In this document: positions 1 through 61,639 of the stretch, piece after piece
How the letters are laid out: the number at the start of each line of letters is the position of its first letter
Position numbering within the stretch: the stretch's first letter is position 1
Source of the DNA: Amphibalanus amphitrite
Taxonomy: Eukaryota; Arthropoda; Thecostraca; Balanomorpha; Balanidae
NCBI RefSeq assembly: GCF_019059575.1
Contig: NW_024882757.1
Coordinates: 62,001 to 126,000, forward strand
DNA: 64,000 bases
Direction of reading: 5' to 3'
The notes under the pieces: model-generated
Told to the model about the DNA's origin: nothing
What the model saw: the letters and a program-made list of their open reading frames with translations, nothing else
The model's database searches: none
Position numbers and translations under genes: made by a program

Positions 1-45480
<45,480 letters not shown>

Positions 45481-47724
45481 TGAGGCGGACTTCAGTCCAC
45501 AGGGCAGTATTGCCTTCAATCATCGGGTTAGGTCTGTGAAACATAAACAGAGGTAAAATTAGGATATAACCGATATAAACACACCATCTTGGAGAGTCCA
45601 TCAGCGGTGTTTTATACGATACTTTACTTATAAGTCCTTCTTATCACAGACAGTGTAAGCTGGGATTCTGCGAAAGCGTTTCAAAATAAGGTAGACAAAA
45701 AAAAAAGAAATACCTGCGGGTGTAAAAAAAAAATATTGAAACGCAAAGCTATGCGGGAAATCGTAACTCAAACAGGACACCAGCGGATACAAACGCAAAT
45801 CAAAATGCATCCCGAACATGTTTGAAGCACTATTATTTCAAAAAAGGTGAAAACAAAATACATTCATCACAAAGTTACCTAATCCAAATTCCAATCATTC
45901 TTGAGAGTATGATCGGATGACATTCCGTGGCGTCATTTCAACTGCATGGTGCATGGTCTCAACTACCTCTAAATTGCAGAAGGCAGGCCACAGGACGGTC
46001 GTCCATGTTATCGTTCGGAGGTCGAGAGGTCCGGTGGTTGATGTCGGCGCTAGTTGGAGACAACGGACTCGGTAGGCATTCGACGTGGAATCTAATCCAT
46101 GCGCCCTGGAAAACGAGGAAGCAATGAAACAGGAGGCATTCTGACAAACTGGACGTAGTGAGCGAGGGACTTGATGACCATGCCACCGAGGGTACGGCCC
46201 AGAGAATGTGTTACGAGAAAATTCGTTGAGCAACGAGCGAGTCACTCAAAACTAATGTCTTTCTTTGCTGTCTTCTCTTGGTCTAGTATTCACTGGCGGA
46301 AAATAGCTCTGGGTAGAATCTGAAAGATCATCGAGTAAGACAATTAACGATAAATGAACGAATTATGCTGATCACGAGTAAAAACTAAGTGGTGAAATAA
46401 CAAACGTCTCGCGATATGAGAACCGTTTCATCGGGTAATATCAATATTCAGCGAAGGTGGCTCCAAGTATTAAGAATTACAGTAAAGTGCAAACTTTTAT
46501 CTGGCATCTGGATCTGAGCCACGAAGGCCCCGACGCCAGCACTCCATGGTTAGGCCTCAACTCAACTTGACATTCGTCAATTTAAAGATTGACGAGATCA
46601 TTGACATGCAGCATCAGTCATTGAATATAGGTCCTGAAAAATATATCTCAGGTTTGTTTGCAGCTTGAAAGGGATAAATTACATACGTATGTACTTTCAT
46701 TTCATTCCACCGATATTGAATGGGGGGGGGCTCTTGGATGAAACCGATTTCTTTTGGCGCTCGGAGTCCGGAAAACAGAAAGGCATGAACTCTTTCGAGT
46801 CTGAGGCCAACAAGGAGCCCCGAGTCAAGAGGCCGACATGGGGCCTTTCGAAAACAGAGGCCGACATGGGGCCCTCAGTAGCAGGCATGGGGCCTCAGCC
46901 CTCAGAGGCCGGTGTGGAGGCCTCAGTGGCCGGCATGGCCATGGGGACCCAAGGTAGGCAGCGGCATGGAGTCCCCGGCGCCCGGCGGTCGGCTGCCGCG
47001 CGGTGGCTGACGTCAGGCATGGGGAGCTTAGAAGTCGGCGTGAAGCACTCAAACTTCAGAGACCAGCGTGGGGCCCACGCAGGGCTCATGGAGACCCTCA
47101 ACTCTCAAGCAAGGCTGGTTTGGTCAGGGTGTGGTGACCGACGCGGGCCATTTCCTTCCGGGCCGGGCCATGGGTCCCGGATGGGTCCCGGCCGGAAGCC
47201 CTGTCACCAGTTTCATTTTTTTTGTAACCTGTAGCATCATCCACCCACACGTGAGTGGCGTTTGTGTATCAGACGTATGTAACTATCTCAATCTCCTTAT
47301 TGACATTGTATCTTCGTGTCGGACCTCTCGATAGTCGATACCAATGCTTCTCCTTCCTGCACTGAATTTATTCATTCAGTAGTGTTATCAGTGCGTGAGA
47401 TAGATGATCGCTCCGTTAGATACCTATCTATTATTGTTTATTGTCTACACTAACATGCAATAAAAACATTTTAAAAAATGCCAACTCCCATCCTCAGCGT
47501 CAGCTCTCAGCCAACACGATTACTCAACGCGCCAAAATTGCACTTTCTGCGCCATTGCAAATGCAGCGCCAATAATTGCTTGTACCTTTTTTGTCTGTAA
47601 ATGTAAAATGACGTAATCAGTACTTATTACATTTCAGACGAAACGCCCTTCTATAGAACCTTTGCTCTGTTTGTTGCACTGAACTCTTACCGGGGTTACA
47701 TGAGCAAGTAAATGCGTATCAGGA
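45481..47724. other. Intergenic DNA upstream of the ZSWIM gene
   Basis: No supported gene. A-runs occur at about 45,700 and 45,727. Positions 46,800-47,200 are a degenerate GC-rich repeat with GAGGCCGACATGGGGCC-type units. The remainder is AT-rich without recognised content. Confidence 0.6.
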
Positions 47725-47733
47725 ACGGATTTT
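47725..47733. repeat. 9-bp target-site duplication, left (ACGGATTTT)
   Basis: Identical to 59,535-59,543 and directly abuts the left end of the foldback element. Confidence 0.93.
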
Positions 47734-47963
47734 ATGTAACGGAAGTTAGCCCACATTCAGCCCACATTCGGCCCAGCCCAGATTGGGGCTGCCAAATCTA
47801 GGGAAAAATCTAGAAATCTAGGGAAAAATCTAAAAACCGTTTTACGCCTAAACGGCTGGAGGAAACTGAAAAATAAGACCACCATTTGAAAGATCTCTTC
47901 ACCCCGGACCTAATGATATGGTTAAATACTGGATCAATTTAACCAAAAGCATGATTTAACCAG
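47734..47963 (+). repeat. Left unique terminal inverted repeat of the foldback element
   Basis: 230 bp, near-perfect reverse complement of 59,305-59,534. It contains the internal repeats AGCCCACATTC(A/G)G(C) and AAATCTAGGGAAAAATCTAG (twice), possible transposase-binding subterminal repeats. Confidence 0.92.
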
Positions 47964-50900
47964 GATGAAAATTTTCGGTCAATGGGGCGGCCCCTACGAT
48001 TTTCTTCAAAATCGGCATGGTGATACTACAGGCCCAGATGACCAATCTGGCTGAAGAAACCCCTATGGGCATTGAAATCTATGGGGTAAAAACACCCTTG
48101 GAAAGTTTTAGCCACGCATTTCTGGCAAGACTATCGCACGCATCCCCCCAATATGGGTATCATATGAAAGCCCATGAAAACCCAAACAAAATGGTGGGGT
48201 AAAATTTACCCATTACCCCATCCAGGGTAAAACTTACCCAAGATCAAAATTTTCGGTCAATGGGGCGGCCCCTACGATTTTCTTCAAAATCGGCATGGTG
48301 ATACTACAGGCCCAGATGACCAATCTGGCTGAAGAAACCCCTATGGGCATTGAAATCTATGGGGTAAAAACGCCCTTGGAAAGTTTTACCCACGCATTTC
48401 TGGCAAAACTATCGCACGCATCCCCCCAATATGGGTATCATATGAAAGCCCATGAAAACCCAAACAAAATGGTGGGGTAAAATTTACCCATTACCCTATC
48501 CAGGGTAAAGTTTACCCAAGATGAAAATTTTCGGTCAATTGGGCGGCCCCTACGATTTTCTTCAAAATCGGCATGGTGATACTACAGGCCCAGATGACTA
48601 ATCTGGCTGAAGAAACCCCTATGGGCATTGAAATCCATGGGGTAAAAACGCCCTTGGAAAGTTTTACCCACGCATTTCTGGCAAGACTATCGCACGCATC
48701 CCCCCAATATGGGTATCATATGAAAGCCCATAAAACCCAAACAAAATGGTGGGGTAAAATTTACCCATTACCCCATCTAGGGTAAAGTTTACCCAAGATG
48801 AAAATTTTCGGACAATGAGGCGGCCCCTACGATTTTCTTCAAAATCGGCATGGTGATACTACAGGCACAGATGACCAATCTGGCTGAAGAAACCCCTATG
48901 GGCATTGAAATCTATGGGGTAAAAACGCCCTTGGAAAGTTTTACCCACGCATTTCTGGCAAGACTATCGCACGCATCCCCCCAATATGGGTATCATATGA
49001 AAGCCCATGAAAACCCAAACAAAATGGTGGGGTAAAATTTACCCATTATCCCATCCAGGGTAAAACTTACCCAAGATGAAAATTTTCGGTCAATGGGGCG
49101 GCCCCTACGATTTTCTTCAAAATCGGCATGGTGATACTACAGGCCCAGATGACCAATCTGGCTGAAGAAACCCCTATGGGCATTGAAATCTATGGGGTAA
49201 AAACGCCCTTGGAAAGTTTTACCCACGCATTTCTGGCAAGACTATCGCACGCATCCCCCCAATATGGGTATCATATGAAAGCCCATGAAAACCCAAACAA
49301 AATGGTGGGGTAAAATTTACCCATTACCCCATCCAGGGTAAAACTTACCCAAGATGAAAATTTTCGGTCAATGGGGCGGCCCCTACGATTTTCTTCAAAA
49401 TCGGCATGGTGATACTACAGGCCCAGATGACCAATCTGGCTGAAGAAACCCCTATGGGCATTGAAATCTATGGGGTAAAAACGCCCTTGGAAAGTTTTAC
49501 CCACGCATTTCTGGCAAGACTATCGCACGCATCCCCCCAATATGGGTATCATATGAAAGCCCATGAAAACCAAAACAAAATGGTGGGGTAAAATTTACCC
49601 ATTACCCTATCCAGGGTAAAGTTTACCCAAGATAAAAATTTTCGGTCAATGGGGCGGCCCCTACGATTTTCTTCAAAATCGGCATGGTGATACTACAGGC
49701 CCAGATGACTAATCTGGCTGAAGAAACCCCTATGGGCATTGAAATCCATGGGGTAAAAACGCCCTTGGAAAGTTTTACCCACGCATTTCTGGCAAGACTA
49801 TCGCACGCATCCCCCCAATATGGGTATCATATGAAAGCCCATGAAAACCCAAACAAAATGGTGGGGTAAAATTTACCCATTACCCCATTCAGGGTAAAAC
49901 TTACCCAAGATGAAAATTTTCGGTCAATGGGGCGGCCCCTACGATTTTCTTCAAAATCGGCATGGTGATACTACAGGCCCAGATGACCAATCTGGCTGAA
50001 GAAACCCCTATGGGCATTTAAATCTATGGGGTAAAAACGCCCTTGGAATGTTTACCCACGTATTTCTGGCAAGACTATCGCACGCATCCCCCCAATATGG
50101 GTATCATATGAAAGCCCATGAAAACCCAAACAAAATTGTAGGGTAAAATTTACCCATTATCCCATCCAGGGTAAAACTTACCCAAGATGAAAATTTTCGG
50201 TCAATGGGGCGGCCCCTACGATTTTCTTCAAAATCGGCATGGTGATACTACAGGCCCAGATGACCAATCTGGCTGAAGAAACCCCTATGGGCATTTAAAT
50301 CTATGGGGTAAAAACGCCCTTGGAATGTTTACCCACGTATTTCTGGCAAGACTATCGCACGCATCCCCCCAATATGGGTATCATATGAAAGCCCATGAAA
50401 ACCCAAACAAAATTGTAGGGTTAAATTTACCCATTATCCCATCCAGGGTAAAACTTACCCAAGATGAAAATTTTCGGTCAATGGGGCGGCCCCTACGATT
50501 TTCTTCAAAATCGGCATGGTGATACTACAGGCCCAGATGACCAATCTGGCTGAAGAAACCCCTATGGGCATTGAAATCTATGGGGTAAAAACGCCCTTGG
50601 AAAGTTTTACCCACGCATTTCTGGCAAGACTATCGCATGCATCCCCATAATATGGGTATCATATGAAAGCCCATGAAAACCCAAACAAAATGGTGGGGTA
50701 AAATTTACCCATTACCCCATCCAGGGTAAAACTTACCCAAGATGAAAATTTTCGGTCAATGGGGCGGCCCCTACGATTTTCTTCAAAATCGGCATGGTGA
50801 TACTACAGGCCCAGATGACCAATCTGGCTGAAGAAACCCCTATGGGCATTTAAATCTATGGGGTAAAAACGCCCTTGGAATGTTTACCCACGTATTTCTG

Positions 50901-51869
50901 GCAAGACTATCGCACGCATCCCCCCAATATGGGTATCATATGAAAGCCCATGAAAACCCAAACAAAATTGTAGGGTAAAATTTACCCATTATCCCATCCA
51001 GGGTAAAACTTACCCAAGATGAAAATTTTCGGTCAATGGGGCGGCCCCTACGATTTTCTTCAAAATCGGCATGGTGATACTACAGGCCCAGATGACCAAT
51101 CTGGCTGAAGAAACCCCTATGGGCATTGAAATCTATGGGGTAAAAACACCCTTGGAAAGTTTTACCCACGCATTTCTGGCAAGACTATCGCACGCATCCC
51201 CCCAATATGGGTATCATATGAAAGCCCATGAAAACCCAAACAAAATGGTGGGGTAAAATTTACCCATTACCCCATCCAGGGTAAAACTTACCCAAGATGA
51301 AAATTTTCGGTCAATGGGGCGGCCCCTACGATTTTCTTCAAAATCGGCATGGTGATACTACAGGCCCAGATGACCAATCTGGCTGAAGAAACCCCTATGG
51401 GCATTGAAATCTATGGGGTAAAAACGCCCTTGGAAAGTTTTACCCACGCATTTCTGGCAAGACTATCGCACGCATCCCCCAATATGGGTATCATATGAAA
51501 GCCCATGAAAACCCAAACAAAATGGTGGGGTAAAATTTACCCATTACCCTATCCAGGGTAAAGTTTACCCAAGATGAAAATTTTCGGTCAATGGGGGGGC
51601 CCGTACGATTTTCTTCAAAATCGGCATGGTGATACTACAGGCCCAGATGACTAATCTGGCTGAAGCAACCCCTATTGGCATTGAAATCTATGGGGTGAAA
51701 ACGCCCTTGGAAAGTTTTACCCACGCATTTCTGGCAAGACTATCGCACGCATCCCCCCAATATGGGTATCATATGAAAGCCCATGAAAACCCAAACAAAA
51801 TGGTGGGGTAAAATTTACCAATTACCCCATCCAGGGTGAAGTTTACCCAAGATGAAAATTTTCGGTCAA
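47964..51869 (+). repeat. Left satellite arm, about 14 x 278 bp
   Basis: Monomers follow one another every 277-278 bp (landmark GGCATGGTGATACTACAGG at 48,013, 48,291, 48,569, 48,846 and so on). Three monomers (beginning about 49,958, 50,236 and 50,791) share a private set of changes (GCATTTAAATC, one T lost before TTTACCC, ATTGTAGGG), evidence of local duplication. Confidence 0.95.
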
Positions 51870-54800
51870 AAAATTTTCATATGATACCCATATTGGGGGG
51901 ATGCGTGCGATAGTCTTGCCAGAAATGCGTGGTTAAAACTTTCCAAGGGCGTTTTTACCCCATAGATTTCAATGCCCATAGGGGTTTCTTCAGCCAGATT
52001 AGTCATCTGGGCCTGTAGTATCACCATGTCGATTTTGAAGAAAATCGTAGGGGCCGCCCCATTGACCGAAAATTTTCATCTTGGGTAAACTTTACCCTGG
52101 ATGGGGTAATGGGTAAATTTTACCCCACCATTTTGTTTGGGTTTTCATGGGCTTTCATATGATACCCATATTGGGGGGATGCGTGCGATAGTCTTGCCAG
52201 AAATGCGTGGGTAAAACTTTCCAAGGGCGTTTTTACCCCATAGATTTCAATGCCCATAGGGGTTTCTTCAGCCAGATTGGTCATCTGGGCCTGTAGTATC
52301 ACCATGCCGATTTTGAAGAAAATCGTAGGGGCCGCCCCATTGACTGAAAATTTTCATCTTGGGTTAACTTTACCCTGGATGGGCAATGGGTAAATTTTAT
52401 CCCACCATTTTGTTTGGGTTTTCATTGGCTTTCATATGATACCCATGTTGGGGGGATGCGTGCGATAGTCTTGCCAGAAATGCGTGGGTAAAACTTTCCA
52501 AGGGCGTTTTTACCCCATAGATTTCAATGCCCATAGGGGTTTCTTCAGCCAGATTAGTCATCTGGGCCTGTAGTATCACCATGCCGATTTTGAAGAAAAT
52601 CGTAGGGGCCACCCCATTGACCGAAAATTTTCATCTTGGGTAAACTTTACCCTGGATGGGGTAATGGGTAAATTTTACCCCACCATTTTGTTTGGGTTTT
52701 CATGGGCTTTCATATGATACCCATATTGGGGGGATGCGTGCGATAGTCTTGCCAGAAATGCGTGGGTAAAACTTTCCAAGGGCGTTTTTACCCTATAGAT
52801 TTCAATGCCCATAGGGGTTTCTTCAGCCAGATTAGTCATCTGGGCCTGTAGTATCATCATGCCGATTTTGAAGAAAATCGTAGGGGCCGCCCTATTGACC
52901 GAAAATTTTCATCTTGGGTAAACTTTACCCTGGATGGGGTAATCGGTAAATTTTACCCCACCATTTTGTTTGAGTTTTCCTGTGCTTTCATATGATACCC
53001 ATATTGGGGGGATGCGTGCGATAGTCTTGCCAGAAATGCGTGGGTAAAACTTTCCAAGGGCGTTTTTTCCCCATAGATTTCAATGCCCATAGGGGTTTCT
53101 TCAGCCAGATTAGTCATCTGGGCCTGTAGTATCACCATGCCGATTTTGCAGAAAATCGTAGGGGCCGCCCCATTGACCGAAAATTTTCATCTTGGGTAAA
53201 CTTTACCCTGGATGGGATAATGGGTAAATTTTACCCAACAATTTTGTTTGGGTTTTCATGGGCTTTCATATGATACCCATATTGGGGGGATGCGTGCGAT
53301 AGTCTTGCCAGAAATGCGTGGGTAAAACTTTCCAAGGGCGTTTTTACCCCATAGATTTCAATGCCCATAGGGGTTTCTTCAGCCAGATTAGTCATCTGGG
53401 CCTGTAGTATCACCATGCCGATTTTGAAGAAAATCGTAGGGGCCGCCCCATTGACCGAAAATTTTCATCATGGGTAAACTTTACCCTGGATGCGGTAATG
53501 GGTAAATTTTACCCCACCATTTTGTTTGGGTTTTCATGGGCTTTCATATGATACCCATATTGGGGGGATGCGTGCGATAGTCTTCCCAGAAATGCGTGGG
53601 TAAAACTCTCCAAGGGCGTTTTTACCCCGTAGATTTCAATGCCCATAGGGGTTTCTTCAGCCAGATCGGTCATCTGGGCCTGTAATATCACCATGCCGAT
53701 TTTGAAGAAAATCGTAGGGGCCGCCCCATTGACCGAAAATTTTCATCTTGGGTAAACTTTACCCTGGATGGGGTAATGGGTAAATTTTACCCCACCATTT
53801 CGTTTGGGTTTTCATGGGCTTTCATATGATACCCATATTGGGGGATGCGTGCGATAGTCTTGCCAGAAATGCGTGGGTAAAACTCTCCAAGGGCGTTTTT
53901 ACCCCATAGATTTCAATGCCCATAGGGGTTTCTTCAGCCAGATTGGTCATCTGGAACTGTAGTATCACCATGCCGATTTTGAAGAAAATCGTAGGGGCCG
54001 CCTCATTAACCGAAAATTTTCATCTTTGGTAAACTTTACCCTGTATGGGGTAATGGGTAAATTTTACCCCACCATTTTGTTTGGGTTTTCATGGGCTTTC
54101 ATATGATACCCATATTGGGGGGATGCGTGCGATAGTCTTCCCAGAAATGCGTGGGTAAAACTTTCCAAGGGCGTTTTTACCCCATAGATCTCAATGCCCA
54201 TAGGGGTTTCTTCAGCCAGATTAGTCATCTGGCCCTGTAGTATCACCATGCCGATTTTGAAGAAAATCGTAGGGGCCGCCCCATTGACCGAAAATTTTCA
54301 TCTTGGGTAAACTTTACCCTGGATGGGGTAATGGGTAAATTTTACCCCACCATTTTGTTTGGGTTTTCATGGGCTTTCATATGATACCCATATTGGGGGG
54401 ATGCGTGCGATAGTCTTGCCAGAAATGCGTGGGTAAAACTTTCCAAGGGCGTTTTTACCCCATACATTTCAATGCCCATAGGGGTTTCTTCAGCCAGATT
54501 AGTCATCTGGGCCTGTAGTATCACCATGCCGATTTTGAAGAAAATCGTAGGGGCCGCCCAATTGACCGAAAATTTTCATCTTGGGTAAACTTTACCCTGG
54601 ATGGGGTAATGGGTAAATTTTACCCAACCATTTTGTTTCGGTTTTCATGGGCTTTCATATGATACCCATATTGGGGGGATGCGTGCGATAGTCTTGCCAG
54701 AAATGCGTGGGTAAAACTTTCCAAGGGCGTTTTTACCCCATAGATTTCAATGCCCATAGGGGTTTCTTCAGCCAGATTAGTCATCTGGGCCTGTAGTATC

Positions 54801-57800
54801 ACCATGCCGATTTTGCAGAAAATCGTAGGGGCCGCCCCATTGACCGAAAATTTTCATCTTGGGTAAACTTTACCCTGGATGGGATAATGGGTAAATTTTA
54901 CCCAACAATTTTGTTTGGGTTTTCATGGGCTTTCATATGATACCCATATTGGGGGGATGCGTGCGATAGTCTTGCCAGAAATGCGTGGGTAAAACTTTCC
55001 AAGGGCGTTTTTACCCCATAGATTTCAATGCCCATAGGGGTTTCTTCAGCCAGATTAGTCATCTGGGCCTGTAGTATCACCATGCCGATTTTGAAGAAAA
55101 TCGTAGGGGCCGCCCCATTGACCGAAAATTTTCATCATGGGTAAACTTTACCCTGGATGCGGTAATGGGTAAATTTTACCCCACCATTTTGTTTGGGTTT
55201 TCATGGGCTTTCATATGATACCCATATTGGGGGGATGCGTGCGATAGTCTTCCCAGAAATGCGTGGGTAAAACTCTCCAAGGGCGTTTTTACCCCGTAGA
55301 TTTCAATGCCCATAGGGGTTTCTTCAGCCAGATCGGTCATCTGGGCCTGTAATATCACCATGCCGATTTTGAAGAAAATCGTAGGGGCCGCCCCATTGAC
55401 CGAAAATTTTCATCTTGGGTAAACTTTACCCTGGATGGGGTAATGGGTAAATTTTACCCCACCATTTCGTTTGGGTTTTCATGGGCTTTCATATGATACC
55501 CATATTGGGGGATGCGTGCGATAGTCTTGCCAGAAATGCGTGGGTAAAACTCTCCAAGGGCGTTTTTACCCCATAGATTTCAATGCCCATAGGGGTTTCT
55601 TCAGCCAGATTGGTCATCTGGAACTGTAGTATCACCATGCCGATTTTGAAGAAAATCGTAGGGGCCGCCTCATTAACCGAAAATTTTCATCTTTGGTAAA
55701 CTTTACCCTGTATGGGGTAATGGGTAAATTTTACCCCACCATTTTGTTTGGGTTTTCATGGGCTTTCATATGATACCCATATTGGGGGGATGCGTGCGAT
55801 AGTCTTCCCAGAAATGCGTGGGTAAAACTTTCCAAGGGCGTTTTTACCCCATAGATCTCAATGCCCATAGGGGTTTCTTCAGCCAGATTAGTCATCTGGC
55901 CCTGTAGTATCACCATGCCGATTTTGAAGAAAATCGTAGGGGCCGCCCCATTGACCGAAAATTTTCATCTTGGGTAAACTTTACCCTGGATGGGGTAATG
56001 GGTAAATTTTACCCCACCATTCTGTTTGGGTTTTCATGGGCTTTCATATGATACCCATATTGGGGGGATGCGTGCGATAGTCTTGCCAGAAATGCGTGGG
56101 TAAAACTTTCCAAGGGCGTTTTTACCCCATACATTTCAATGCCCATAGGGGTTTCTTCAGCCAGATTAGTCATCTGGGCCTGTAGTATCACCATGCCGAT
56201 TTTGAAGAAAATCGTAGGGGCCGCCCAATTGACCGAAAATTTTCATCTTGGGTAAACTTTACCCTGGATGGGGTAATGGGTAAATTTTACCCAACCATTT
56301 TGTTTCGGTTTTCATGGGCTTTCATATGATACCCATATTGGGGGGATGCGTGCGATAGTCTTGCCAGAAATGCGTGGGTAAAACTTTCCAAGGGCGTTTT
56401 TACCCCATAGATTTCAATGCCCATAGGGGTTTCTTCAGCCAGATTAGTCATCTGGGCCTGTAGTATCACCATGCCGATTTTGAAGAAAATCGTAGGGGCC
56501 GCCCCATTGACCGAAAAATTTCATCTTGGGTAAACTTTACCCTGGATGGGGTAATGGGTAAATTTTACCCCACCATTTTGTTTGGGTTTTCATGGGCTTT
56601 CATATGATACCCATATTGGGGGGATGCGTGCGATAGTCTTGCCAGAAATGCGTGGGTAAAACTTTCCAAGGGCGTTTTTACCCCATAGATTTCAATGCCC
56701 ATAGGGGTTTCTTCAGCCAGATTGGTCATCTGGGCCTGTAGTATCACCATGCCGATTTTGAAGAAAATCGTAGGGGCCGCCCCATTGACTGAAAATTTTC
56801 ATCTTGGGTAAACTTTACCCTGGATGGGGTAATGGGTAAATTTTACCCCACCATTTTGTTTGGGTTTTCATGGGCTTTCATATGATACCCATATTGGGGG
56901 GATGCGTGCGATAGTCTTGCCAGAAATGCGTGGGTAAAACTTTCCAAGGGCGTTTTTACCCCATAGATTTCAATGCCCATAGGGGTTTCTTCAGCCAGAT
57001 TGGTCATCTGGGCCTGTAGTATCACCATGCCGATTTTGAAGAAAATCGTAGGGGCCGCCCCATTGACCGAAAATTTTCATCTTGGGTAAACTTTACCCTG
57101 GATGGGGTAATGGGTAAATTTTACCCCACCATTTTGTTTGGGTTTTCATGGGCTTTCATATGATACCCATATTGGGGGGATGCGTGCGATAGTCTTGCCA
57201 GAAATGCGTGGGTAAAACTTTCCAAGGGCGTTTTTACCCCATAGATTTCAATGCCCATAGGGGTTTCTTCAGCCAGATTAGTCATCTGGGCCTGTAGTAT
57301 CACCATGCCGATTTTGAAGAAAATCGTAGGGGCCGCCCCATTGACCGAAAATTTTCATCTTGGGTAAACTTTACCCTGGATGGGGTAATGGGTAAATTTT
57401 ACCCCACCATTTTGTTTGGGTTTTCATGGGCTTTCATATGATACCCATATTGGGGGGATGCGTGCGATAGTCTTGCCAGAAATGCGTGGGTAAAACTTTC
57501 CAAGGGCGTTTTTACCCCATAGATTTCAATGCCCATAGGGGTTTCTTCAGCCAGATTAGTCATCTGGGCCTGTAGTATCACCATGCCGATTTTGAAGAAA
57601 ATCGTAGGGGCCGCCCCATTGACCGAAAATTTTCATCTTGGGTAAACTTTACCCTGGATGGGGTAATGGGTAAATTTTACCCCACCATTTTGTTTGGGTT
57701 TTCATGGGCTTTCATATGATACCCATATTGGGGGGATGCGTGCGATAGTCTTGCCAGAAATGCGTGGGTAAAACTTTCCAAGGGCGTTTTTACCCCATAG

Positions 57801-59304
57801 ATTTCAATGCCCATAGGGGTTTCTTCAGCCAGATTAGTCATCTTGGCCTGTAGTATCACCATGCCGATTTTGAAGAAAATCGTAGGGGCCGCCCCATTGA
57901 CCGAAAATTTTCATCTTGGTTAAACTTTACCCTGGATGGGGTAATGGGTAAATTTTACCCCACCATTTTGTTTGGGTTTTCATGGGCTTTCATATGATAC
58001 CCATATTGGGGGATGCGTGCGATAGTCTTGCCAGAAATGCGTGGGTAAAACTTTCCAAGGGCGTTTTTACCCCATAGATTTCAATGCCCATAGGGGTTTC
58101 TTCAGCCAGATTGGTCATCTGGGCCTGTAGTATCACCATGCCGATTTTGAAGAAAATCGTAGGGGCCGCCCCATTGACTGAAAATTTTCATCTTGGGTAA
58201 ACTTTACCCTGGATGGGGTAATGAGTAAATTTTATCCCACCATTTTGTTTGGGTTTTCATGGGCTTTCATATGATACCCATATTGGGGGGATGCGTGCGA
58301 TAGTCTTGCCAGAAATGCGTGGGTAAAACTTTCCAAGGGCGTTTTTACCCCATAGATTTCAATGCCCATAGGGGTTTCTTCAGCCAGATTAGTCATCTGG
58401 GCCTGTAGTATCACCATGCCGATTTTGAAGAAAATCGTAGGGGCCGCCCCATTGACCGAAAATTTTCATCTTGGGTAAACTTTACCCTGGATGGGGTAAT
58501 GGGTAAATTTTACCCCTCCATTTTGTTTGGGTTTTCATGGGCTTTCATATGATACCCATATTGGGGGGATGCGTGCGATAGTCTTGCCAGAAATGCGTGG
58601 GTAAAACTTTCCAAGGGCGTTTTTACCCCATAGATTTCAATGCCCATAGGGGTTTCTTCAGCCAGATTGGTCATCTGGGCCTGTAGTATCACCATGCCGA
58701 TTTTGAAGAAAATCGTAGGGGCCGCCCCATTGACCGAAAATTTTCATCTTGGGTAAACTTTACCCTGGATGGGGTAATGGGTAAATTTTACCCCACCATT
58801 TTGTTTGGGTTTTCATGGGCTTTCATATGATACCCATATTGGGGGGATGCGTGCGATAGTCTTGCCAGAAATGCGTGGGTAAAACTTTCCAAGGGCGTTT
58901 TTACCCCATAGATTTCAATGCCCATAGGGGTTTCTTCAGCCAGATTAGTCATCTGGGCCTGTAGTATCACCATGCCGATTTTGAAGAAAATCGTAGGGGC
59001 CGCCCCATTGACCGAAAATTTTCATCTTGGGTAAACTTTACCCTGGATGGGGTAATGGGTAAATTTTACCCCACCATTTTGTTTGGGTTTTCATGGGCTT
59101 TCATATGATACCCATATTGGGGGGATGCGTGCGATAGTCTTGCCAGAAATGCGTGGGTAAAACTCTCCAAGGGCGTTTTTACCCCATAGATTTCAATGCC
59201 CATAGGGGTTTCTTCAGCCAGATTAGTCATCTGGGCCTGTAGTATCACCATGCCGATTTTGAAGAAAATCGTAGGGGCCGCCCCATTGACCGAAAATTTT
59301 CATC
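51870..59304 (-). repeat. Right satellite arm, about 27 x 278 bp, inverted
   Basis: Same monomer in reverse orientation, starting with a truncated copy at the junction (about 10 bp lost between two TTTCAT repeats). It contains a six-monomer segment repeated with an offset of 1,667 bp (about 53,070-54,810 against 54,737-56,477). Confidence 0.95.
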
Positions 59305-59534
59305 CTGGTTAAATCATGCTTTTGGTTAAATTGATCGGGTATTTAACCATATCATTAGGTCCGGGGTGAAGAGATCTTTCAAATGGTGGTCTTATTTTTC
59401 AGTTTCCTCCAGCCGTTTAGGCGTAAAACGGTTTTTAGATTTTTCCCTAGATTTCTAGATTTTTCCCTAGATTTGGCAGCCCCAATCTGGGCTGGGCCGA
59501 ATGTGGGCTGAATGTGGGCTAACTTCCGTTACAT
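59305..59534 (-). repeat. Right unique terminal inverted repeat of the foldback element
   Basis: Reverse complement of the left end, differing at only a few bases (for example GATCGGGTATTT against AAATACTGGATC). Confidence 0.92.
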
Positions 59535-59543
59535 ACGGATTTT
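59535..59543. repeat. 9-bp target-site duplication, right (ACGGATTTT)
   Basis: Matches 47,725-47,733 exactly. Confidence 0.93.
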
Positions 59544-59556
59544 CCTATTCGCTCAC

Positions 59557-59663
59557 CATTGTAGTCCGTTTGTAATGCGTATATTAACTCTGCTCATGTA
59601 ACCCCGAGCTCTATAATGTGGAATGCGCATCGGCCGCCAGATGGTGTCCAACGGTGCCGCCAT
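59557..59663 (-). CDS. Candidate first coding exon of an unrecognised gene
   Basis: The minus-strand ATG at 59,661-59,663 has a strong Kozak context (AACATGG). It opens 35 codons (MAAPLDTIWRPMRIPHYRAR, GYMSRVNIRITNGLQ) ending at a consensus donor GTGAGC (59,551-59,556) in phase 2. The N-terminus is basic, as in many mitochondrially imported proteins, but I do not recognise the family. The foldback element begins only 17 bp beyond the exon, so if this is a gene its first intron contains the 11.8-kb insertion. A damaged inverted copy of its 5' end lies at 61,640-61,830. It could also be part of a repeat. No second exon was found. Confidence 0.3.
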
Positions 59664-59830: not shown

Positions 59831-59871
59831 TCAGATATAAGGAACTACTACGTTAAAGGGACCATCCCACC

Positions 59872-60346
59872 TTAAAGGGACCCTCCCACCTTAACATTAG
59901 TTTTGAGTTGAGATAGCCAAGTTTGCGGCCAGGCTCAGAAACCACCATTTATCCTGGTCGCAACCCCCGCAGCTTTATGGTGTTCAAGAAATTTCTTCCC
60001 TTTACTTGCAGGGTGGGACCAGCGTGGTCCCTATCTCTTAACCATTACGGGAGTCTGATGACGTCATCAGGCTTTCGAACGTCCGTTAAATGTTTGACTA
60101 AAACGTTTTGTAGCACGCGGTGGTATATGCTGCTTTGCGCGCAACAAATGCCGCACTTTCAAATAAAGTCGCTAGAAACAGCGGAGATCACAAAAAGTAA
60201 ACAAAAGTAAAAGTCTAATATCTTGAAAACCGGTGAATATTTTTCGATGAAATTTGGTAGATATTCGTTTTTGCTCTTTCTGAACCGAGCGACATCACTT
60301 TCATGCCAATTCATTAACTTTTTTGAAGGTGGGAGGGTCCCTTTAA
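59872..60346. mobile_element. TTAA-flanked MITE, copy 1 (~475 bp)
   Basis: Begins TTAAAGGGACCCTCCCACCT and ends with the reverse complement form AAGGTGGGAGGGTCCCTTTA(A). A solo variant of the same end (TTAAAGGGACCATCCCACC) lies just before it at 59,853. The TTAA at both ends suggests a piggyBac-type mobiliser, though the inverted repeat does not start with CCC. It contains a 16-bp palindrome CTGATGACGTCATCAG (60,055-60,070). No coding capacity. Confidence 0.65.
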
Positions 60347-60489
60347 CATTAGTTTTGAGTTGAGATAGCCAAGTTTGCGGCCAGGCTCAGAAACCACCAT
60401 TTATCCTGGTCGCAAACCCCGCAGCTTTATGGTGTTCAAGAAATTTCTTCCCTTTACTTGCAGGGTGGGACCAGCTTAGTCCCTATCTC
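60347..60489. mobile_element. Fragment of the same MITE family
   Basis: Nearly identical to 59,893-60,040 (5' part of copy 1), cut at CCCTATCTCTTAA, where copy 2 begins. In copy 1 this same point is an intact TTAA, consistent with copy 2 having inserted into another copy. Confidence 0.6.
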
Positions 60490-60963
60490 TTAAAGGGACC
60501 CTCCCACCTTAACATTAGATTTGAGTTGAGATAGCCAAATTGGTGGCCATGGCCTGAAAATACCGGTTTGGGCACTCACAACATCGAAAAATGCTTTAAT
60601 TCGGAGATATCGAATTTCAAACTTGCAGTTTTCGGATTCTAAGGGGCTAATGCATTGGTATGCCCCCTTAGAATTTGTGACGTCAGCGGAGATCTAACGA
60701 TTTTAAATCTTTTACTAAAACGTTTGGTAGCACGCGGTGGTATATGCTGCTTTGCGCGCAACAAATGCCGCACTTTCAAATAAAGTCGCTAGGAACAGCG
60801 GAGATCCCGAAAAGTAAACAAAAGTAAAAGTCTAATATCTTGAAAACCGGTGAATATTTTTCGATGAAATTTGGTAGATATTCGTTTTTGCTCTTTCTGA
60901 ACCGAGCGACATCACTTTCATGCCAATTCATTAACTTTTTTGAAGGTGGGAGGGTCCCTTTAA
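60490..60963. mobile_element. TTAA-flanked MITE, copy 2 (~474 bp)
   Basis: Same inverted ends as copy 1. The right two-thirds (from about ACTAAAACGTTTGGTAGCAC, 60,713) is nearly identical to copy 1; the left third differs. Confidence 0.65.
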
Positions 60964-61639
60964 ACCCTTATAAGTCAATGGGGAAATATGAAAACTGCTA
61001 TTTTGGCGCCGAGAATGATCTGAAACTATCTCAAGCACATAGAATCTTGATTTCATGCACTCCTTGCAAGGTTCTATGCTTCATATTTACATTGTTGCCC
61101 TTGCGTGACGTCATTTGTGACGTCACAAGGGTCACAATTTTACTTCAATAACTCCCGATTAAATTGAGCTAGCGAGTCGGGAAAGCCACCAATGGACTGA
61201 GGAAGACCTGCCGAATCGAATGATATGCGACATGACCTCTTTCGACCAACTTCGTGACCTGGGGGTGCTGACCTGACCTTGACCTGAGGTCAACATCCTA
61301 AGTTGACCTGACCCGAACAAAAAGTATATCATTCGATGCGCCTGAGCTAGCTGAACACGATGATGCCAAAATCGCGGCTCTACGGCCATTTTTGGCGAAG
61401 TTATTTACCAAAAACCGAACCCGTGCCTTAGATCACTTGACCTGACCTCAGAGGTCACCGGTTGACCTGAGACCTGTACAGCGGGTTCCTACCAGTCACT
61501 CTGCATTATACTTTGCCGCATACGACCACTTAACCGCTTAATTCTAGTTAAATTAGCGGCGCATTAGCGAGGTGGGTTCAATCAACCCCCTCGGCCGGGG
61601 CAAATGTAGGTCCGGCGAGTGAATTTAAGGAATTCTGAA
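60964..61639. other. Intergenic DNA with TGACC / GGTCA clusters
   Basis: No gene. There is an imperfect inverted repeat of two TGACGTCA sites (about 61,098-61,131). Positions 61,235-61,320 and 61,435-61,475 have many TGACCT / AGGTCA pentamer-hexamers, like those in the piggyBac-like MITE, suggesting another old mobile fragment. Confidence 0.5.

Follow-up and report, generated by a model that had tools for sequence, protein, structure and literature searches.

Foldback (FB) elements of Drosophila melanogaster have long inverted arms made up of tandem repeats and are flanked by 9-bp duplications; their internal repeats are short, whereas those of the element described here, which lies in a 64,000-nt stretch of the genome of Amphibalanus amphitrite (the window; G000:C1260:62001–126000), measure 278 bp. 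This barnacle element is very probably a non-autonomous foldback-type DNA transposon whose whole body is formed by the 278-bp repeat, arrayed in two opposed arms behind 232-bp inverted ends. The genome searched for its relatives comprised 807.55 Mb in 2,644 contigs.

The closest precedent, in terms of architecture alone, is Tetris of Drosophila virilis, which, according to the portion of its account available here, is likewise a non-autonomous foldback element with an external domain followed by tandem repeats (approximately 220 bp) in both inverted arms; these repeats gave rise to satellite arrays (PMC4079207). A first-pass annotation, made from the letters of the window, had called the design unusual, which in view of Tetris was overstated. 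Three structurally complete Tetris copies are described, none with arms longer than 1,735 bp; long arrays, of as many as 66 repeats, reside mostly on repeat-only contigs, the authors' suggestion being that transposition is disrupted once arrays are large (PMC4079207). As for the barnacle element, no partner transposase is known for Tetris from that portion of the account, and Mutator was proposed (the Tetris duplications are 8–10 bp long). The external domain and the repeat of Tetris share a similar stretch of 37 bp; in the barnacle element an in-register likeness favors a relation between end and repeat, while their unanchored alignment is not significant. Unlike Tetris, which has a middle domain (PMC4079207), the arms of the window element meet directly.

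Three further systems are comparable in part, as far as the sections of the accounts used here go. Tm1 of root-knot nematodes has foldback-like composite inverted repeats of variable length and 9-bp duplications; its repeats, however, are 13–15 bp long and a FLYWCH-MULE (MULE, Mutator-like element; Phantom) transposase is known (PMC3169594). Muta1 of Aedes aegypti (8–9-bp duplications) shares long ends, subterminal tandem repeats, and many non-autonomous derivatives, but has 12-bp repeats, 145-bp ends, and a MULE transposase active in yeast (PMC5225508). Galileo has long, internally repetitive inverted repeats (with a tandem repeat of approximately 210 bp in subfamily F) and chimeric copies, but belongs to the P superfamily, generates 7-bp duplications, and carries three repeats per arm at most (PMC3573991). 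Expansion of the short internal arrays of transposons is also listed, in the part of the source consulted, as a source of satellites (PMC12628747). A literature search judged on titles and opening abstracts returned no account of the present element or of such a barnacle satellite.

Structure and insertion site of the window element

The element occupies positions 47734–59534 of the window (11,801 bp) and lies between two identical 9-bp copies of ACGGATTTT, at 47725–47733 and 59535–59543, as the first-pass annotation had noticed. The unique part of its left terminal inverted repeat (47734–47965, + strand) starts with ATGTAACGGAAGTTAGCC and is 232 bp long, close to the 230 bp first estimated; that of the right repeat (59303–59534, − strand), of the same length, differs from it at 2 positions. 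Between these ends extend a left arm of 14 full monomers (47966–51852, +) and a right arm consisting of a 204-bp part monomer next to the center and 26 full ones (51875–59302, −). The 40 full monomers and the part copy account for the roughly 41 copies that had been counted in two opposed arms. Tandem Repeats Finder recovered the same two arrays with 14.1 and 26.8 copies and 97% matches. The arms meet head to head at a center of 22 bp (51853–51874), which is composed of a monomer start plus filler and contains no unique middle domain. Near the terminus of the left end an 11-bp direct repeat was seen by eye, and a 20-bp unit is present twice in tandem at 47794–47836; within the right arm, monomers R12–R16 recur, six apart, as R18–R22 with 0–1 differences per monomer. 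The longest open stretch in the element has 100 codons; a Pfam search with four frames of the window and an Rfam search of the window gave no match.

That the element inserted at this site is proved by its empty counterparts. The joined flanks, with one duplication kept, match uninterrupted at 37 of 41 listed places in the genome, and all six places fetched from these 37 carry one copy of ACGGATTTT and no insert. Such sites are numerous because the element inserted into a short repeat resembling a miniature inverted-repeat transposable element, of which the flanks at 47690–47724 and 59544–59606 (CTTACCGGGGTTACATGAGC...) are part.

A dispersed family with paired ends

The terminal 25 bp of the element, searched with up to 3 mismatches, occur 433 times in the genome, while the reversed pattern, used as a control, does not occur at all. 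Among the first 100 ends listed, all of them exact, 43 convergent pairs were recognized, spaced 1.6–21 kb apart (median, 7.6 kb), besides 14 unpaired ends and one divergent neighboring pair. Fifteen elements, picked because both ends were visible and ranging from 3.0 kb in L018 to 15.9 kb on C204, are all flanked by 9- or 10-bp duplications; two of them (L021 and L022) represent one site on two contigs, which leaves 14 distinct sites. This set omits L016 and L017, where one end is interrupted or falls beyond the stretch, L027, which lies at a contig edge, L028, which is nested and has adjacent ends, and the copy on C1345, which lacks a duplication; C305, the locus of L017, was counted with its far end in a second set. 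There, 12 of 20 further pairs have a 9-bp and three a 10-bp duplication, compared to 1 of 342 in a mismatched-end control. Taken together, duplications flank 30 of 35 pairs, 25 of them 9 bp and five 10 bp long. The window element is thus one of many dispersed, duplication-flanked copies with very long inverted arms made up mostly of tandem repeats, which are the hallmarks of foldback-type elements, and its original description as an 11.8-kb foldback-like DNA transposon holding a satellite array holds. The right ends of L035 (C2049) and L026 (C85) share, by eye, 14 identical flanking bases, so the same insertion may sit on two contigs here as well.

The junction of the end with the monomer was found 140 times, and subtraction leaves some 290 of the 433 ends for which no junction of the window type exists within 3 mismatches. 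One convergent pair from among the latter, C32:1248573–1257927, has ends reading ATGTAACGGAAGTTAGCACAGATTC and the 9-bp duplication GTCAAGTTA; its end aligns with that of the window element over the first 54 bp (281 and 46 bases were read), and further inward a stretch is alignable with the monomer (score 67 vs. 21 for the opposite strand, without shuffle control). Judged from these 327 end bases, it appears to be a sister element with diverged ends, and it is one example among the ends without a window-type junction.

Seven ends chosen because their monomer junction was missing from the exact list were inspected. Five of them carry the ordinary end plus monomers; the other two, L116 (C750) and L121 (C902), share just 42–46 bp with the element. 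They were considered as a transposase-bearing partner and dropped, an insert nested in the end being the more probable reading, although such an insert is proved for C305 only. At that locus (L017 and L122), the right end of an array element is interrupted by a 6,794-bp element (approximately 437022–443815). This insert is bounded by long inverted ends (GCGTATATATC...) and a separate 9-bp duplication (GGGCCGAAT), and within it lie fragments of an Rft-1 gene (PF04506; one stretch matches with E = 5.9e-21, another with 0.0003, below the cut-off); it is a Pack-MULE-like gene capture. L016 (C30), L116, and L121 are interrupted at about the same position of the end, beside GCGTATTTAC- or GCGCATATTTAC-like sequence; this place is possibly a preferred target of another element.

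Behavior and origin of the 278-bp arrays

Searched for in the genome, a 37-bp pattern from the monomer was found 1,856 times (control, 0). With 140 junctions, division gives approximately 70 elements with window-type arrays of some 26 monomers each; in the 15 fetched copies flanked by duplications, the number of full monomers ranges from 9 to 55. Of the 1,856 monomers, the first 100 were listed: 95 are enclosed by paired ends (on C2, C9, C21, C26, and C29) and two lie beside an end on C5; the three others, at G000:C5:2229888–2230481, are 38 kb away from the nearest listed end and are the sole candidates in this list for a location outside the elements. Save for these three, no free satellite array was seen among the first 100 listed monomers, unlike in Tetris, and the proposal that the element could seed genomic satellites finds no sign there.

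The inner part of the end (about 190 bp) resembles a diverged monomer. When the entire end is compared with the monomer in register, the actual phase ranks first of 278 and its score is reached by 3 of 500 shuffles; for the inner 190 bp, a length picked after the alignment had been viewed, none of 500 shuffles reaches it. This is moderate evidence for a likeness in phase, and the repeat probably began when the inner portion of the inverted repeat was duplicated. The earlier suggestion that the satellite arose within the transposon is favored, short of proof, by this likeness and by the location of monomers inside paired ends.

Once present, the arrays appear to be moved as a whole, which is another difference from Tetris, as is the presence of up to 55 full monomers in a duplication-flanked copy. 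L012 (C1745, 28 full monomers) and L013 (C47, 27) have the same order of monomers through both arms and the center; over 8,266 aligned bp there are 13 mismatches plus one 277-bp indel, one of the two elements being 8.3 and the other 8.5 kb long. Their flanks are unrelated (local score 16, compared to 486 and 487 for the same-site pair L021/L022) and their duplications differ. Near-identical arrays at such different sites are best explained by transposition of the entire array, with one monomer gained or lost; this is one clear case. In the same-site pair (C431 and C180), which represents one insertion on two contigs, there is 1 mismatch in 3,744 aligned bp, and the two copies differ by 1,494 bp inserted within the array.

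Mean differences per 278-bp monomer, determined for 13 elements, amount to 5.3 within the same arm (at least 5 apart), 6.0 for adjacent monomers, 6.5 between arms, and 8.1 between elements. The arms of the window element at first seemed very different from each other (19.5 differences), which was rejected as an effect of register offset; with whole-monomer registration the value is 8.0, versus 7.4 and 6.1 within the arms. Two groups of monomers are apparent in an arm-by-arm table, and in L022 the left arm belongs to one and the right arm to the other. The centers are diverse as well: by reading of the junctions, 14 kinds were distinguished over 19 loci, with 0–22 bp of filler. One type is common to the window element (where it is reversed), L017, L021, and L022, a second to L012 and L013, and a third to L018 and the element represented by L023 and L024 (C204); the element represented by L025 and L026 (C85) has extra strand switches and a 154-bp end piece inside its arrays. 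Such variety would follow from repair at the tip of a hairpin or from inversion between the arms. In L042 and L048 (C257), the array contains an insert that, judged by eye, resembles a Penelope-like GIY-YIG region.

Mobilization, rival explanations, and outlook

The length of the duplications, which in Mutator elements is 8–11 bp and mostly 9 bp, together with the structure of the ends suggests Mutator, and mobilization by a MULE transposase is the best guess. The enzyme, made elsewhere, would cut at ATGTAACGG and reinsert the element at a target opened with a 9-bp stagger. In the intervals between transpositions, the number of monomers would be altered and the copies homogenized by unequal exchange and conversion, while the center would be remade at the hairpin tip, either by deletion or by template switching. 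Eight of the 20 best MULE loci (L096–L098, L101, L102, L104, L105, and L108) belong to a MULE family with its own asymmetric, foldback-like ends, which contain short repeats of approximately 14 bp; a 9-bp duplication is visible by eye at L108. At L102 a sequence one mismatch away from the first 16 bp of the element attracted attention and was discarded, as it lies outside the ends of that MULE in sequence that by eye resembles a non-LTR (long terminal repeat) reverse transcriptase.

Several observations weigh against the account given so far, and they are considered here together with the rival explanations. Five of the 20 pairs in the second set lack a duplication. Within an arm, neighboring monomers show no greater similarity than monomers far apart, which indicates that the process chiefly visible is something other than simple local duplication. 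C1345, checked apart from the two sets, carries the right flank of the window element together with a different left flank, a different array, and no duplication; in addition, the left flank of C75 and the right flank of C83 are reverse complements of each other in the 14 bases displayed. Such copies arose either by recombination or through joins that the assembler made across arrays, and because of them the arm lengths of single copies are not trustworthy without reads. As long, near-identical arrays assemble poorly, the opposed arms might themselves be an artifact of assembly or library construction (foldback chimeras, or collapsed or misjoined arrays). Artifacts may indeed distort monomer numbers in single copies; as an explanation of the arms, however, they are highly improbable, given the 43 pairs among the first 100 ends, the matching duplications in the DNA flanking 30 of 35 pairs, arms that are unequal in length and monomers, centers that vary between copies, and the agreement of L012 and L013 over 8.3 kb at unrelated sites.

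The comparison of end and monomer is also not uniform: for the inner 75 bp of the end it is weak (35 of 500 shuffles, rank 2 of 278), and a local alignment without anchoring falls short of significance, with a score of 41 against 49 for the best of 200 shuffles. The latter would suit a pre-existing genomic satellite that was captured and then spread by the transposon, the more so as length and homogeneity of the repeat are ordinary for a satellite and a MULE-like element has captured a host gene in this genome (the Rft-1 pieces in the nested element). Capture is nonetheless improbable: paired ends enclose 95 of the first 100 monomers listed and two more are beside an end, the inner end resembles the monomer in register, and the C32 sister element likewise has a monomer-like stretch behind its ends (as noted, without shuffle control). 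Origin by duplication within the inverted repeat is therefore preferred. With respect to the enzyme, the PF10551 (MULE) profile matched 111 places in the genome, and the predicted partner, a Mutator-like transposase with the same ends, was not found: the best 20 of these loci, examined with approximately 1.5 kb on either side, lack the ends of the element, although flanks of this length would not reveal a partner whose ends lie farther away. Inspection by eye of the listed MULE places also put none of them between listed paired ends. Foldback structures, moreover, arose with different transposases, according to the parts of the sources considered (PMC3573991, PMC3169594). An enzyme from another superfamily with 8–10-bp duplications, or a P-like one as in Galileo, would account for this; it is unlikely, as the 25 duplications of 9 bp and five of 10 bp are near those of the MULE foldbacks (9 bp in Tm1, 8–9 bp in Muta1, and 8–10 bp in Tetris, in the parts consulted), and long ends with subterminal repeats fit a MULE, too. 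Merlin and hAT are examples of such superfamilies. Mobilization by a MULE transposase thus remains the preferred prediction.

Elsewhere in the window, 42-bp tandem repeats with a common CCAAGGTC core are present in two places (17312–17800 and 19721–19992), positions 59853–60970 hold a composite repeat that contains duplicated blocks and has AAGGTGGGAGGGTCCCTTTAA-type ends, and an open frame at 44740–45285 (−) looks ZSWIM-like by eye, with no match in Pfam.

The observations can tentatively be combined into the picture of a satellite with no existence other than as the body of a transposon; its whole arrays would jump as units, would grow, shrink, and re-center between jumps, and would have split into window-type and C32-type subfamilies that keep the two-arm design. 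The occurrence of the same array of 27–28 monomers in L012 and L013 at unrelated sites argues against the idea, put forward for Tetris, that long arrays stop movement. Copies without duplications may mark chromosome rearrangements, and copies of common descent with unequal numbers of monomers make growth, homogenization, and repair of the palindrome center measurable copy by copy. If the picture is true, the monomer array could act, for example, as a ladder of putative transposase-binding sites, and the expansion of a satellite would be a heritable, perhaps selected, part of the life cycle of a transposon rather than a product of its decay.

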